DNA from: Oscillospiraceae bacterium
GTDB lineage: Bacteria; Bacillota; Clostridia; Oscillospirales; Ruminococcaceae
Direction of reading: 5' to 3'
Length of the DNA: 34,561 nt
NCBI GenBank assembly: GCA_017541275.1
Contig: JAFXZM010000022.1
Location: 1-34,561 of the forward strand
Position 1 is the stretch's first letter, and the number at the start of each line of letters is the position of its first letter. Position numbers and translations under genes: made by a program. Positions 4,091 through 8,881 of the stretch are shown here, piece after piece. The notes beneath the pieces were generated by a model that did not search any database, was not told where the DNA came from, and was given only the letters and a program-made list of their open reading frames with translations.

Positions 4091-5494
4091 TCAGCCGAGA
4101 TGCAGGACATTCAGCAGTAAAATCCAACTGATGCCGTAATAGGTCACAACAGCAACAAGGTCATTGACCGTCGTGATGAGCGGCCCGGACGCGACCGCCG
4201 GATCGACCTTGAGCTTTTTGAAAAACAGCGGAATCAGCGTACCGACTGCACTGGAGATCACCATAGCAAGCATCAGCGAAAACCCGATGCAGCCGGACAC
4301 TGCAAAAGCAAATGCAGCGGTCTTCCTTTTGACCGTGAAAATATAAATGCCGACAAACAGGAAGGAAAGCAGCCCCATCAGCAGACCGTTGCAGAAGCCT
4401 ACGCGGGTCTCCTTCGCGATCAGATGACATTTTTGGCGGAAGGTCAGGTTTTCGTCCATGAGCACGCGAATCGTCACGGCAAGCGACTGCGTGCCGACAT
4501 TACCGGCCATATCCAGAATAAGTGACTGGAATGCCATAATCAGCGTAAGCTGAGAGATGACCTTTTCAAATACGCCGACAACGGACGATACCAGCAATCC
4601 GAGGCCGAGCAAAATCAGCAGCCACGGCAGGCGCTTTTTCATGCTCTGCACCAGCGGCTCCTGCAAATCCTCCTCCGCAGTCAGGCCGGCGAGCTTTGCG
4701 TAGTCCTCGCCCATTTCATCATCAACGACCTCGATAATGCTCTGCGATGTGATAACACCGAGCATTTTGTTTGCATTATCGAGCACCGGAATGATGCTTT
4801 CCGAATAATCCTTCAGCTTTTCAATACAGTCGTCAATCGTTTCCGTTGCATAGACATACGGGAACGAGGTAACGATCAGGCTTTCCAGCGAGGTCGTGCT
4901 GCGGGCGGTAATCAGCTCCTTCAGATCAAGCGCACCGAAAAACTCGCCGGATTCATCGACCACAAACAGCGTGGTAATATTGTCATTTTCCTCTGCCTGA
5001 TGCACAAGCTCGCTCATTGCCTGCTTGACAGTCAGATTTTCGCGGATGACGATGCAGTTCGTTGTCATTCTGCTGCCGATCTCATCCTCATCAAAGGAAG
5101 CGATCAGGCGGATCTCCTTTCGGATATCCGGCGCAATGGCATCAATGATAAGCACGCGCTTCTGTTTTTCGATCGCATGCAGCACATTGGCGGCGGTATC
5201 GGTTTCCAGTCCGGAGACAACCGCAGCGGCCTTCCGGATATCCATTTCATCGAGAAACACGCCGGCCTCTGCTTCATCCAGATGCTCAAACACCTCTGAT
5301 AGCATTTCCGCAGTGCAGACGCGGTACAGCTTCCGCCGCTCCGGCAGCGAGAGTGTCTGAAGCACCTGTGCAATATCATTGCAATGATAGTCCTCCAGCT
5401 TATTCTGAATGGCCTTCGGTGAATCATTGCTCCGGATGACAGCCGCAATTTCTGCTTCATAATCCGGCTTGATGTTCAGTTCATCCTGATTCAT
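4091..5494 (-). CDS. mgtE: MgtE family magnesium transporter
   Basis: A 467-residue protein with the standard MgtE layout. An acidic superhelical N domain spans about residues 10-130 (FEHLDEAEAGVFLDEM, IRKAAAVVSGLE). Paired CBS domains span about 135-265 (GSRMTTNCIVIRENLT, PVLDNANKMLGVIT). A membrane domain of five helices runs from about 285 to the end, with conserved DMAGNVGTQSLAV and PLITTVNDLVAVVTYY. In this family Mg2+ bound between the N and CBS domains closes the channel. The start has a GGAGG site eight bases upstream. A 246-base leader from a consensus promoter precedes it and contains a small ORF and an intrinsic terminator, so expression is probably attenuated. Confidence 0.96.
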   Translation of the reverse strand: MNQDELNIKPDYEAEIAAVIRSNDSPKAIQNKLEDYHCNDIAQVLQTLSLPERRKLYRVCTAEMLSEVFEHLDEAEAGVFLDEMDIRKAAAVVSGLETDTAANVLHAIEKQKRVLIIDAIAPDIRKEIRLIASFDEDEIGSRMTTNCIVIRENLTVKQAMSELVHQAEENDNITTLFVVDESGEFFGALDLKELITARSTTSLESLIVTSFPYVYATETIDDCIEKLKDYSESIIPVLDNANKMLGVITSQSIIEVVDDEMGEDYAKLAGLTAEEDLQEPLVQSMKKRLPWLLILLGLGLLVSSVVGVFEKVISQLTLIMAFQSLILDMAGNVGTQSLAVTIRVLMDENLTFRQKCHLIAKETRVGFCNGLLMGLLSFLFVGIYIFTVKRKTAAFAFAVSGCIGFSLMLAMVISSAVGTLIPLFFKKLKVDPAVASGPLITTVNDLVAVVTYYGISWILLLNVLHLG

Positions 5495-5562
5495 CTATAT
5501 CCCTCCGTTTCATTCGTTGAAGCTGTGTCAATATTCAACGCTGACGTAAGGGGCAAATGGAC

Positions 5563-5595
5563 AAAAAATCCTGTGCATGACGGGTCATACACAGG
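5563..5595 (-). terminator. Intrinsic terminator inside the mgtE leader (attenuator)
   Basis: On the minus strand a 12-bp stem, CCTGTGTATGAC with GTCATGCACAGG (one G-U pair), is followed by A and a run of six T. It lies between the small leader ORF and the mgtE ribosome site, so transcription from the leader promoter must read through it to reach mgtE. Confidence 0.85.
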
Positions 5596-5612
5596 GAGAC
5601 AGCATGATTAGT

Positions 5613-5708
5613 TCATCGGAGAAGAAAGCCGCATACCGGCCGCCGTTTTTCCTCCGGAAACGACATGCATAATCGCCCGTTTGACCCGCAACTGTCGCCG
5701 TTTGCCAC
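5613..5708 (-). CDS. Small leader ORF upstream of mgtE, 31 codons
   Basis: A GTG start at 5708 is preceded by the strong site GGAGGTGAAGAAA, and the frame closes with TGA at 5613. The predicted peptide has three cysteines (positions 7, 14 and 26), a basic-proline patch (EEKRRPVCGF) and no hydrophobic signal. It starts about 30 bases after the predicted transcription start and ends 18 bases before the terminator stem, the geometry of an attenuator leader peptide. I do not recognise the peptide. The stretch might instead be a structured RNA that merely contains a reading frame; the ribosome site argues for translation. Confidence 0.5.
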   Translation of the reverse strand: MANGDSCGSNGRLCMSFPEEKRRPVCGFLLR

Positions 5709-5746
5709 TTTCTTCACCTCCGTTAGCTCAGTTTTACAGCATATTC

Positions 5747-5775
5747 ATTATAGCACAGATTTGTTCATTTGTCAA
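5747..5775 (-). promoter_or_regulatory. Exact-consensus sigma-A promoter for mgtE
   Basis: On the minus strand TTGACA (5775-5770) and TATAAT (5752-5747) are separated by exactly 17 bp. It lies between the hydF terminator and the small leader ORF and points to mgtE. Confidence 0.9.
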
Positions 5776-5865: not shown

Positions 5866-7059
5866 TCAGAGCAGCATGCCGTTCATCAGCGACCGGTTCA
5901 GGATTCCGGTGCAGGCAGCGAGCGTCACGCCGTAATTGGTAAACGGAACGCCCTGTGCAAGCGCGGTTCGCATGCGCCACTGCAATTCCCGTTCTGTCCG
6001 CATACATCCCCCGCAGTGAATCACGAGCTGATATCCGGTCAGGTCGGACGGGAATGTCCCGCCGGAGCAGAAGGAGAGCGCAAACTGCTTTCCGGTCAGC
6101 TTCATGATTGCACGCGGCAGCTTGACCGTTCCGATATCGCCGCACTGCCGGTGATGCGTGCAGCCCTCTGCAATCAGGATTTTCGCGCCGTCGGGGAGCT
6201 GCTTCAGAGTCTCCGCACCGGCGACAGCCGTTTTGAGAAAGCCCTTATACCGCGCCATGAGAATGGAAAAGGAGGTCAGCGGAATATCCTCCGGCACGGC
6301 CGAAGCGACCGCTGCAAACGCCTGACTGTCGGTCACGACCATGCGCGGCGCTGTCCGGAGGCTGCGGAGCAGTCCGGGAAGCTGTGCGGGCTGCACCAGC
6401 AGCGCACAGGCATCCGCATCGAGCACCTCGCGCAGGGTTTGCTGCTGCGGCAGAATCAGTCTGCCCTTCGGCGCCGACTCGTCGATCGGCGTCACAAGAA
6501 TGACCGAATCCGCCGGCTTTATCAGATCGCGGATGATAAACCGCTCCGGCGCATCCGTTTTCGCAAGCCGTCCGAGTGCCTCCTTCAGCTCCGGTATGCC
6601 CGCGCCGGTTTTCGCACTGACCGCGACCGCATGCTCCGGCAGGTTTTCCGGCGGCGCAGAGAGCTTATCGCACTGACTGTACGCGATCAGATAGGGCACC
6701 CGCTCCTGCTCAAACAGAGCGGTCAGCGCCCGATCGGTCTCAGAAACCGGAGCAGCGGCATCCGTTACCAGAACCGCAATATCCGTGCGGAACAGCTCGC
6801 GCTTGGTTTTTTCGATGCGGAGCGCACCGAGCGATTCATCGTCATCATCAAAGCCCGCAGTATCCGTAATCATGACCGGGCCGATCGGCAGAAGCTCCAT
6901 GCTTTTCATCACGGCATCGGTCGTTGTGCCGGCAACATCGGAAACGATCGACACATCCTGTCCGGTCAGCGCATTGACAAGGCTGGATTTTCCTGCATTC
7001 CGCGCACCGAAAAAGCCGATATGCACCCGTTCGGATGCGGGGACATCATTGATTCCCAT
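5866..7059 (-). CDS. hydF: [FeFe]-hydrogenase H-cluster maturation GTPase HydF
   Basis: A 397-residue protein, the usual HydF length. The N-terminal GTPase domain has a P-loop GARNAGKSS (18-26), switch TTTDA, DTAG (66-69) and YSQCDK (127-132). The C-terminal domain carries the cluster ligands: CTHH at 300-303 and HCGGC at 348-352, matching the CxH...HCxxC pattern. HydF is the scaffold on which HydE and HydG assemble the diiron subcluster before transfer to the hydrogenase, which implies H2-producing fermentation. hydE, hydG and the hydrogenase itself are not in this window. The ATG at 7059 has GAGGTGAT upstream. It lies 52 bp after the GH5 endoglucanase gene, separated by a GC hairpin, with no promoter I could identify. 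Confidence 0.96.
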   Translation of the reverse strand: MGINDVPASERVHIGFFGARNAGKSSLVNALTGQDVSIVSDVAGTTTDAVMKSMELLPIGPVMITDTAGFDDDDESLGALRIEKTKRELFRTDIAVLVTDAAAPVSETDRALTALFEQERVPYLIAYSQCDKLSAPPENLPEHAVAVSAKTGAGIPELKEALGRLAKTDAPERFIIRDLIKPADSVILVTPIDESAPKGRLILPQQQTLREVLDADACALLVQPAQLPGLLRSLRTAPRMVVTDSQAFAAVASAVPEDIPLTSFSILMARYKGFLKTAVAGAETLKQLPDGAKILIAEGCTHHRQCGDIGTVKLPRAIMKLTGKQFALSFCSGGTFPSDLTGYQLVIHCGGCMRTERELQWRMRTALAQGVPFTNYGVTLAACTGILNRSLMNGMLL

Positions 7060-7111: not shown

Positions 7112-8881
7112 TCAGTTCAGGCCGACCAGATCGGAAAGGCTGCATCTTTTGGCAAGATACTGCATCAGCCGCGAGACATCGCCGCTGTCTACGCCGATTT
7201 TTCCGTTGCATTCGGCATTCATTTTGGATTCTTCGGAAACCTCCAGTCCGTCTTCATCGCCGACAATCCGGCACAGCAGCACGGCATCCTGAACATTGAC
7301 TGTGCCGTTGCAGTCCACATCGCCGGGCTTGCTTTTCTTTCCGGGCGGGTCGGTTTCAGTTGTGCTTGTGGAGGTACTTGTGGATGTGCTTGTAGTGATG
7401 CTTGTGGAGCATGTCGTGTGGGTCGAGGAGGCAGTTGTCGTGGTCACAGTTTCGGTCGTGGTCGTGACGGTCGGTTTTGTTACGACTGAGCCGCCATTGT
7501 AATACTGTGTCACTGTCTGACCGTTTGCACCCAGCGGAATCTGATGGTCAAGACCGATGAACACACCGTTTTCGTCCTGCCAGAGCGCCGGCTTCACAAG
7601 CTCGTACTTATCCTCATCCCAATTCTGGAAGTCGTTTATAAGGAGACCGCCGGTATCGCCGGAATTCTCGTTAAAGCACCAGAACGTATGATGAATATGC
7701 TTTTCGATCATATAATCACGGAGGATTATCATCCACTTTTTGTTATCGCCCGTCGGGTCCTTCGTTTCGTCGATGAATCCGCCCCATTCTCCCATGAGAA
7801 GCGGAGATATTTTTTCTTCAGCAAGATATGCCCATGTATCACGCCAGTAGTCATCAAGGAGCGTTTCTCTGGAAAAATCCTTCGCAAACCAGTCCTGCTT
7901 CCATACGAGCGGGCCGTAGTCATGCGGAGAATATACAAGCTGGCTCTGATACTTGCCGAGATTCACAGGATAGTCTCTTGCGCCGCGGAAGTTGCCCCCC
8001 CACCATGCACCGTAAAAGGGGCTGTAATTTGTCTGATACACGATCATGGGCGAATCCCAGTCCTGACCCTCCTCAAACTTCGGATAGACCTCAATGCCCT
8101 CAACCATGACAAGCAGATGCGGGTTCGCGCTTAATACAGCATTCGCGCCGCGCTCGGCAGCATACTTCCAGTTTGTATCATCCTTTGAATCGTCCCATTT
8201 GGCCATGCCCTGACCGTCGTTCTTGCCGTGCGGCTCATTCTTCAGGTCAATCGCGATGATCGTATCGTCATTCTTGTAGTAATCCGCAACCCAGTTCAAT
8301 GCTTCGAGCCAGTCATCATAGCTGTAATTGCTGTCATACCAGAGCGGATACTGGTGACCGTTTGAGGCAGTTGTCGCACAGTGAATGTCGATCATAATTT
8401 TGATGCCGAGCTCCTTGCACCACTGCACAGCCATATTCCAGATATCAAAGCTGTATTTGGGTTTTCCGCCCGCAACACCCTCTACGGTCAGCTCAGGGTT
8501 CTTCCACTCATTGATCTTGACCATATAAGGATCCGGAGCAAGGTTTTTCCATTGGAGAAGAATCTGTGTGGACATCGGCACCCGCATGAGATTGAATCCG
8601 TGATCTGCCATTTCGGTCAGCATTTCATGCATATTTCGCGACCACACGCCGTCAAAGCACTGTGTTGTGACATTGTAGCCGAACCAGTTGACGCCGGTCA
8701 GCCAGACCTCATTTCCGTTCATGTCAACAATTTTGTCGCCCTCGACATGCAGCCAGTCGTCCTGCGTGTCGTCCGCTGCCGCGGCTGCGGCGGTACCCGC
8801 AGTTTCCGTGATCGGCGCTGCCTGTGATGTCAGCAGCAGCCCCGCTGCCAGCAATGCTGACAGCTTTTGCCCTCTTTTCAT
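7112..8881 (-). CDS. Secreted GH5 family endoglucanase with C-terminal dockerin
   Basis: A 589-residue cellulosomal enzyme. A signal peptide (MKRGQKLSALLAAGLLL) is followed by a GH5 catalytic domain at about 40-440. The acid/base is Glu216 in DLKNEP, the nucleophile Glu365 in LLMGEWGG, and substrate-cleft motifs include WFGYNV, HGFNLMRVP and IDIHC. A low-complexity Thr/Ser linker (about 466-510) leads to a type I dockerin (about 518-580). The first calcium loop is good (GDVDCNGTVNVQDA). The second (AECNGKIGVDSGDV) lacks the usual leading Asp, giving a divergent duplicate. Likely role: cutting beta-1,4-glucan while docked on a scaffoldin. RBS GAGGGG lies upstream of the ATG at 8881. The nearest upstream gene is an unknown membrane protein. 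Confidence 0.94.
   Translation of the reverse strand: MKRGQKLSALLAAGLLLTSQAAPITETAGTAAAAAADDTQDDWLHVEGDKIVDMNGNEVWLTGVNWFGYNVTTQCFDGVWSRNMHEMLTEMADHGFNLMRVPMSTQILLQWKNLAPDPYMVKINEWKNPELTVEGVAGGKPKYSFDIWNMAVQWCKELGIKIMIDIHCATTASNGHQYPLWYDSNYSYDDWLEALNWVADYYKNDDTIIAIDLKNEPHGKNDGQGMAKWDDSKDDTNWKYAAERGANAVLSANPHLLVMVEGIEVYPKFEEGQDWDSPMIVYQTNYSPFYGAWWGGNFRGARDYPVNLGKYQSQLVYSPHDYGPLVWKQDWFAKDFSRETLLDDYWRDTWAYLAEEKISPLLMGEWGGFIDETKDPTGDNKKWMIILRDYMIEKHIHHTFWCFNENSGDTGGLLINDFQNWDEDKYELVKPALWQDENGVFIGLDHQIPLGANGQTVTQYYNGGSVVTKPTVTTTTETVTTTTASSTHTTCSTSITTSTSTSTSTSTTETDPPGKKSKPGDVDCNGTVNVQDAVLLCRIVGDEDGLEVSEESKMNAECNGKIGVDSGDVSRLMQYLAKRCSLSDLVGLN

Follow-up and report, generated by a model that had tools for sequence, protein, structure and literature searches.

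What controls the Mg2+ channel gene mgtE in this bacterium? Within the window (the whole 34,561-nucleotide stretch of DNA analysed here), mgtE occupies 4091..5494 on the minus strand (ATG at 5494, 467 aa), its product matches PF01769 MgtE, PF03448 MgtE_N and CBS in a domain search, and all parts of its leader lie on the same strand, reading from 5775 downward to the gene. The first-pass annotation had described an exact TTGACA-17-TATAAT promoter, a 31-aa ORF with a strong ribosome site and an intrinsic terminator before mgtE, and we find all of these on the minus strand. The sigma-70 promoter (5747..5775, with TG before the -10 element) reaches a consensus score of 12/12; three promoter-like sites occur in 3 kb, compared to 1.6 in shuffles, and only the site at 5775-5747 attains a score of 12. 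When 65 leaders were reduced to a non-redundant comparison set of 42, the best promoter score was at least 10/12 in 36, with a mean of 10.98 compared to 7.74 for shuffled sequences.

The leader matches no known class of RNA switch in Rfam 15. At the gathering threshold, the only matches in the window are an FMN riboswitch (RF00050, 18948-19083, plus strand, 98.9 bits) and a lysine riboswitch (RF00168, 33841-34045, minus strand, 94.1 bits), both outside the leader, which itself gave four matches with E-values of 2.9-5.1, all far below gathering scores. A covariance-model search found no M-box (RF00380) in the bacterium's own genome, which is 75.6% complete; the same search detects the M-box in B. 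subtilis and L. lactis. We therefore ruled out the M-box, or another Rfam family with a gathering-level match, as the identity of the leader, and the significant Rfam match that had been named beforehand as contrary evidence did not occur in it. The accompanying expectation that mgtE genes of this group are usually under M-box control did not hold: the M-box is rare, being found in 1 of 61 genomes searched and in none of the 30 in the genus. The central suggestion of the first-pass annotation, that a leader peptide stands in for the M-box and controls the gene, is very probably right in the main, while its premise about the M-box in relatives was mistaken.

Presence of the leader follows presence of the gene. 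Among 30 genomes of the genus, the leader core occurs in exactly the 21 that carry this mgtE, on the same contigs, and in none of the 9 that lack it. A degenerate DNA pattern matched 31 named genome records, every one with a metagenome-assembled title; they are labelled Ruminococcus, Oscillospiraceae, Clostridiales, Clostridia or Ruminiclostridium, with a rumen, gut or faecal origin stated in 12 of the 31 titles. All 31 have mgtE downstream within the 1.7 kb searched, counting one locus (L076) with just a 49-residue mgtE fragment and another (L083) that aligned only at residues 211-454. No leader match was found among viral contigs using one pattern.

A core model built on sequence only gave a consistent picture over wider samples. 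It matched 15 of 297 genomes in the family, including the bacterium's own, with 14 matches before mgtE and one false; 2 of 295 in the order draw (its own and G519); 24 of 29 in the genus of G210; and 8 of 391 in the class draw (its own and seven others). Leaving aside the own locus, mgtE is downstream at 31 of 31 loci from the G210 genus and the class draw. A phylum draw of 398 genomes, which could have placed the leader beyond the class, returned only the own genome and G705, which lies within the class. Except for one false match, all leader matches examined sit before mgtE, and no other gene was found behind the leader. One core-model match, L105 (E 4.8e-4, at about 1500 of the reverse strand), falls on the coding-frame start VAKCDCCGKGM, which we take to be that of ribosomal protein L28 (rpmB); with no mgtE after it, it was rejected as a leader, and it is a caution for weak matches to the core. 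Distant mgtE paralogues of about 25% identity (L024-L030) gave no R2 match, nor did the M-box locus L108. The mgtE of L023 (58% identity) also gave none, and it is preceded by a divergent leader recognised by eye only. Taken together, the comparisons strongly support a real, conserved leader before the mgtE of gut bacteria related to Ruminococcus.

Is the small ORF translated? It runs from a GTG at 5708 to a stop at 5613 (5613..5708, minus strand; 31 aa plus stop), behind a Shine-Dalgarno sequence, GGAGGTGA, at 5714..5721 that is conserved and correctly spaced among leaders. Its product, VANGDSCGSNGRLCMSFPEEKRRPVCGFLLR, contains three cysteines and matched no Pfam or NCBIfam model. Across the 42 leaders the ORF is 28 to 47 codons long including the stop, and the start codon is GTG in 39, ATG in 2 and TTG in 1, in part because of how the search was built. 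From codon 14 through codon 20, frame 0 lacks a stop in all 42 leaders, compared to 33 and 32 for the other frames; the corresponding values are 42, 28 and 25 through codon 24, and 42, 24 and 24 through codon 27. Codons 14-27 hold no stop in frame 0 and 22 in each of the others. The frame is open through codon 30 in 37 leaders (23 and 24 for the other frames) and through codon 34 in 18 (20 and 18), with no advantage for frame 0 beyond. We give the whole series because the cut-off at codon 27 was picked after the shortest ORF was known; in these alignments, the difference between frames remains clear at codons 20-27.

To locate where the amino acids appear to matter, we linked 55 unique cores in a minimum spanning tree and counted substitutions along 49 edges, with an assumed transition weight of 2. 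Codons 4-7 show 17 synonymous and 11 nonsynonymous changes, where 6.0 of 28 would be expected to be synonymous (P 7.7e-6; three multi-hit codons skipped). Both flanks are near neutral, with 7 synonymous, 15 nonsynonymous and 6.8 synonymous expected at codons 2-3, and 14, 23 and 10.6 at codons 9-12. Codons 13-27, compared within nine groups of close relatives, gave 31 synonymous and 49 nonsynonymous changes (22.1 synonymous expected, 50 multi-hit codons skipped), at best a weak sign of amino-acid selection there. By these counts, amino-acid selection is confined to codons 4-7, [GS]DS[CY], which in the window read G D S C (5688..5699, minus strand). In L153, by eye, one inserted base shifts the frame of codons 9-12 and the RNA there is kept, which fits selection on the RNA at those codons. 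Because frame 0 is open through codon 24 and codons 4-7 are selected as amino acids, these indirect tests indicate that the small ORF is translated.

The conservation of the small frame in relatives, on which the first-pass annotation had staked its reading, is thus seen in every leader through codon 24. Its emphasis on three cysteines was misplaced: all three are present in the window, and only the first is conserved, the selected part being codons 4-7. Asp stands at codon 5 in 41 of 42 leaders, Ser at codon 6 in 40 and Cys at codon 7 in 34, with Tyr, Ser, Gln or Thr in the other 8. The second and third cysteines of the window peptide are, by eye, not conserved among leaders. L016, L018 and L020 form one lineage in which Cys-Ser replaces Ser-Cys.

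We looked for helices by comparing the duplex energy of each leader's own strands with that of partners swapped between leaders, after removing row and column means, using 20,000 permutations that treat related sequences as exchangeable. Over 42 leaders, the strongest signal comes from a helix, P1, between ORF positions -10 to +6 and the 3' part of the ORF (z -11.1, 0 of 20,000 permutations as good). In the window, its 5' strand (5703..5718, minus strand) covers part of the Shine-Dalgarno and the start codon of the leader ORF, and its 3' strand (5617..5634, minus strand) lies within the last codons. P1 fails in L102, L136, L023, L147, L100, L107 and L155, where 20-41 of 41 swapped strands do equally well or better. 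A second helix, S, pairs the mgtE ribosome site (Shine-Dalgarno region, 5500..5509, minus strand) with an upstream anti-Shine-Dalgarno strand (5543..5553, minus strand; z -5.6, no permutation as good), and a third, X, pairs codons 8-13 with the region after the ORF (z -3.35, 11 of 20,000). Seven other strand combinations gave z between -1.0 and +2.3.

The switch strand in codons 7-13 (X5; 5670..5690, minus strand) has two candidate partners, the 5' arm of the terminator and block B (5549..5565, minus strand), which overlaps the strand masking the mgtE ribosome site. The terminator is an 11-pair hairpin, H (5570..5595, minus strand), followed by ATTTTTTG, with its U-rich tail at 5562..5569 on the same strand. 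We placed hairpin and tail without using the switch strand in 39 of the 42 leaders, none being placed in L017, L019 and L066, and repeated the permutations on these 39. The antiterminator (codons 7-13 against the hairpin) gave z -5.0 (0 of 20,000), X (codons 7-13 against the 30 nt behind the hairpin) gave z -3.2 (29 of 20,000), S (the mgtE site against the same 30 nt) gave z -5.3 (0 of 20,000), and four control pairings fell between -0.3 and +1.3. We relied on this test rather than on a variant covering 37 of the 42 leaders, in which block B was placed with the help of X5 and which favours X. Pairings of codons 2-6, the 5' end of the leader or the P1 5' strand with the terminator or block B were rejected, as they showed no excess over swapped partners. 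These permutation tests support four helices: P1, the antiterminator, X5 with block B, and S over the mgtE ribosome site.

Individual leaders bear this out: in L007 (UGUGGUGCAAACGGA with CCUGUUUGCAUUGCAG), L010 (UGUGGUACAAACGGGCGA with CUGCCUUGUUUGUAUCCGU) and L005 (UGCGGUUCAAACCGGC with CCCCGUCUGAACCGCAG), altered codon letters are matched by altered hairpin letters. Covariation and fold calculation together indicate that the terminator and antiterminator are mutually exclusive and that the antiterminator strand is within reach of a ribosome. In energies that include no long-loop penalty, the antiterminator duplex outweighs H in 30 of 39 leaders (-19.8 compared to -15.4 kcal/mol in the window), and no more than 5 bp of H survive its formation in 32 of the 39. 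The strands of X and S share nucleotides of block B in 27 of the 42 leaders and are separate in 15; in the 27, pairing of the switch strand should therefore free the mgtE ribosome site. Measured from where the P1 3' strand ends, the stop codon falls at -10 to +11 nt in 27 of 42 leaders, and the remaining 15 have it further downstream, so ribosomes that finish should also open P1. Beyond what the first-pass annotation proposed, the codons themselves would thus form an antiterminator, P1 would mask the ribosome site of the ORF, and the ribosome site of mgtE appears to be masked as well.

From these comparisons we estimate, at a probability of roughly 0.7, that the leader is a ribosome-controlled attenuator of mgtE acting on both transcription and translation. 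A ribosome kept on the first codons would break P1 and leave the switch strand free; the free switch strand would keep the terminator from being made and release the mgtE ribosome site (ON). A ribosome on about codons 4-22 would cover the switch strand, allowing the terminator to form while the mgtE site stays masked (OFF).

We moved a 31-nt ribosome footprint along transcripts that stop at the U-rich tail and calculated the folds for nested structures only, an approach to which pseudoknots are invisible. In the window, the probability of the terminator hairpin, P(H), is 0.08-0.10 with the P-site on codons 1-2 and 0.23 at codon 25, 0.95-0.99 at all other codons up to 30, and 0.99 without a ribosome. 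Averaged over 39 leaders, P(H) rises from 0.56 at codon 1 and 0.58 at codon 2 to 0.81-0.84 across codons 5-21 and drops again to 0.61-0.68 across codons 24-30; the ribosome-free mean is 0.68. It falls below 0.5 in 16 of these leaders at codon 1, 3-7 at codons 5-21, 14 at codon 25 and 11 without a ribosome. In this model, the clearest ON state is a ribosome held at the beginning and the clearest OFF state a ribosome over the switch strand, with a modest contrast over the set. The ribosome-free state is uncertain because a possible pseudoknot of P1 and the antiterminator would be invisible to the fold calculation: the two helices could coexist in this way and make the ribosome-free leader ON, whereas the scan predicts OFF for the window.

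What would the ribosome respond to? We infer that Mg2+ is the signal because mgtE encodes an Mg2+ channel and was the only gene found behind the leader, and because the enterobacterial leaders mgtL and corL offer a parallel. With less certainty, low Mg2+ may delay initiation on the leader ORF or the first steps of elongation, by way of the [GS]DS[CY] codons, and turn the gene ON, and ample Mg2+ may let ribosomes run through and turn it OFF; this predicted sign would agree with mgtL/corL logic. Codons 4-7 sit where the ribosome passes from freeing to covering the switch strand and so are the best candidate for the sensing step. That [GS]DS[CY] is itself an Mg2+ sensor, a Gram-positive nascent-chain or decoding motif unlike EPDP that would depend on Mg2+ to pass through the ribosome, would sit at the very point of choice between antiterminator and terminator and would have arisen separately from mgtL, is a tentative idea that we consider doubtful.

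It is also conceivable, though we consider it rather unlikely, that the switch in the leader ORF is set by general translation capacity, for example the initiation rate, with Mg2+ as one of several inputs. Such a design would suit a P1 that masks the ORF's own ribosome site and a switch that follows ribosome position and not a run of codons; it would not account for a leader found before mgtE only, and selection on codons 4-7 as amino acids argues for something specific in elongation.

An orphan riboswitch, whose conserved core would be loop 1 of an H-type pseudoknot binding an ion or metabolite and whose ORF would be secondary, seems improbable to us. P1 together with X5:H (or X5:B) does have the topology of an H-type pseudoknot whose first loop, some 12-15 nt long, is strongly conserved, and a double output is common to many riboswitches. 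Yet a secondary ORF does not explain a frame 0 that all 42 leaders keep free of stops through codon 24 (28 and 25 leaders for the other two frames), the synonymous excess at codons 4-7, or a conserved and correctly spaced Shine-Dalgarno. Furthermore, a pseudoknot stabilised by Mg2+ would presumably put an Mg2+ uptake gene ON at high Mg2+.

In trp/his-type amino-acid attenuators, the position of the ribosome chooses antiterminator or terminator. The mgtE leader resembles them in that ribosome position would decide between these two structures; unlike them, it has no run of control codons, its P1 and antiterminator share no strand, and it has a second output on translation. Stalling on Cys or Ser starvation at codons 6-7 could draw on the Ser and Cys that most leaders carry there (40 and 34 of 42), but by eye no leader peptide contains a control-codon run for one amino acid, 8 of 42 leaders have Tyr, Ser, Gln or Thr at codon 7, and the downstream gene encodes a cation channel. 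We regard this kind of attenuation as very unlikely, and the earlier suggestion that a specific amino acid is sensed loses ground with it. A chance arrangement of constitutive promoter, terminator and spurious ORF is scarcely credible, for although the leader as a whole folds just slightly better than shuffles (z -1.4), the helix permutations, the selection on codons 4-7 and the openness of the frame are all contrary.

The ribosome-controlled attenuator that we favour has its nearest parallels in enterobacteria, for which PMC11282234, PMC3641672 and PMC11552253 describe transport genes whose Mg2+ control runs through a translated leader ORF; such control of magnesium uptake is better known from Salmonella and E. 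coli. For mgtL/mgtA of these two bacteria, and likewise for corL, PMC11282234 and PMC11552253 report that efficient leader translation at high Mg2+ is the OFF state and poor translation at low Mg2+ the ON state. As there, in the mgtE leader a short translated ORF precedes an Mg2+ transport gene and two RNA structures exclude each other. Compared by description, not by sequence, mgtL differs in that its terminator is Rho-dependent and its codons are proline/acidic (EPDP), whereas the mgtE leader has an intrinsic terminator, an antiterminator inside the ORF and no proline/acidic run in its conserved part, the gene being mgtE and the hosts Clostridia. An EPDP-type motif is absent, with one Asp, at codon 5, and Pro at codons 3-8 in 0 of 42 leaders. 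The corL/corA system of E. coli and Salmonella likewise has a leader ORF, conserved in its N-terminal part, and translating this ORF reduces expression of an Mg2+ transport gene (PMC11552253); again by description and not sequence, corL is Rho-dependent and belongs to another gene and other hosts. In mgtM/mgtP of Salmonella mgtCBR, short ORFs likewise act as transcription attenuators before an Mg2+ transport operon, and differ in having ATP and proline as signals and two ORFs in tandem (PMC3641672).

Other RNA elements are less similar. The M-box also controls Mg2+ transport genes in cis, and the mgtE leader has no match to it; according to PMC12810186, the target of an M-box in Mtb is a small upstream ORF. 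The mgtE motif of Thioalkalivibrio is another orphan RNA before mgtE, but PMC11109978 describes it as exclusive to Thioalkalivibrio, with SD and AUG at the base of its P4 stem, and as a riboswitch candidate rather than a uORF. An Mg2+-sensitive upstream ORF has been reported for the animal channel TRPM7. Literature searches on leader peptides, uORFs, RNA motifs, riboswitches and attenuation of mgtE or Mg2+ transporters in Ruminococcus and Clostridia, and on mgtL and ribosome destabilisation, with subscription journals mostly outside their reach, gave among the papers listed no title or abstract opening that describes the present element. If our reading is true, gut Clostridia would have a family of their own, with an antiterminator written into codons and a second switch at the ribosome site of mgtE itself, which would suggest that sensing of Mg2+ by way of the ribosome arose more than once. 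The leader would then be a compact model for studying possible Mg2+ responses of a short nascent peptide.

We made further observations at and around this locus. Upstream of the mgtE promoter on the same strand is hydF, for the [FeFe] hydrogenase maturation GTPase (5866-7059, minus strand; TIGR03918, E 6.7e-153), and by eye an inverted repeat and a T run lie between the two. The ORF at 7112-8881 (minus strand) has, we assume, the look of a secreted cellulase whose linker is rich in threonine and whose end is dockerin-like; NCBIfam gives it just a sub-threshold match to endoglycoceramidase I (21 bits compared to a cut-off of 700). Among divergent relatives of the leader, L157 and L158 (VDSCDNCGRSR) have Asn replacing Ser at codon 6 and lie roughly 0.3-0.6 kb from mgtE, which could be due to a longer leader or to another element between. 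Two leaders of family f67, L159 and L160 (VDAGDSCDKRGK), keep GDSC alone from the core peptide. L159 has changes both in codons 8-13 and in block B, and the two still pair, GACAAACGAGGGAAA with GUUCCCGUCGUUUGUU.
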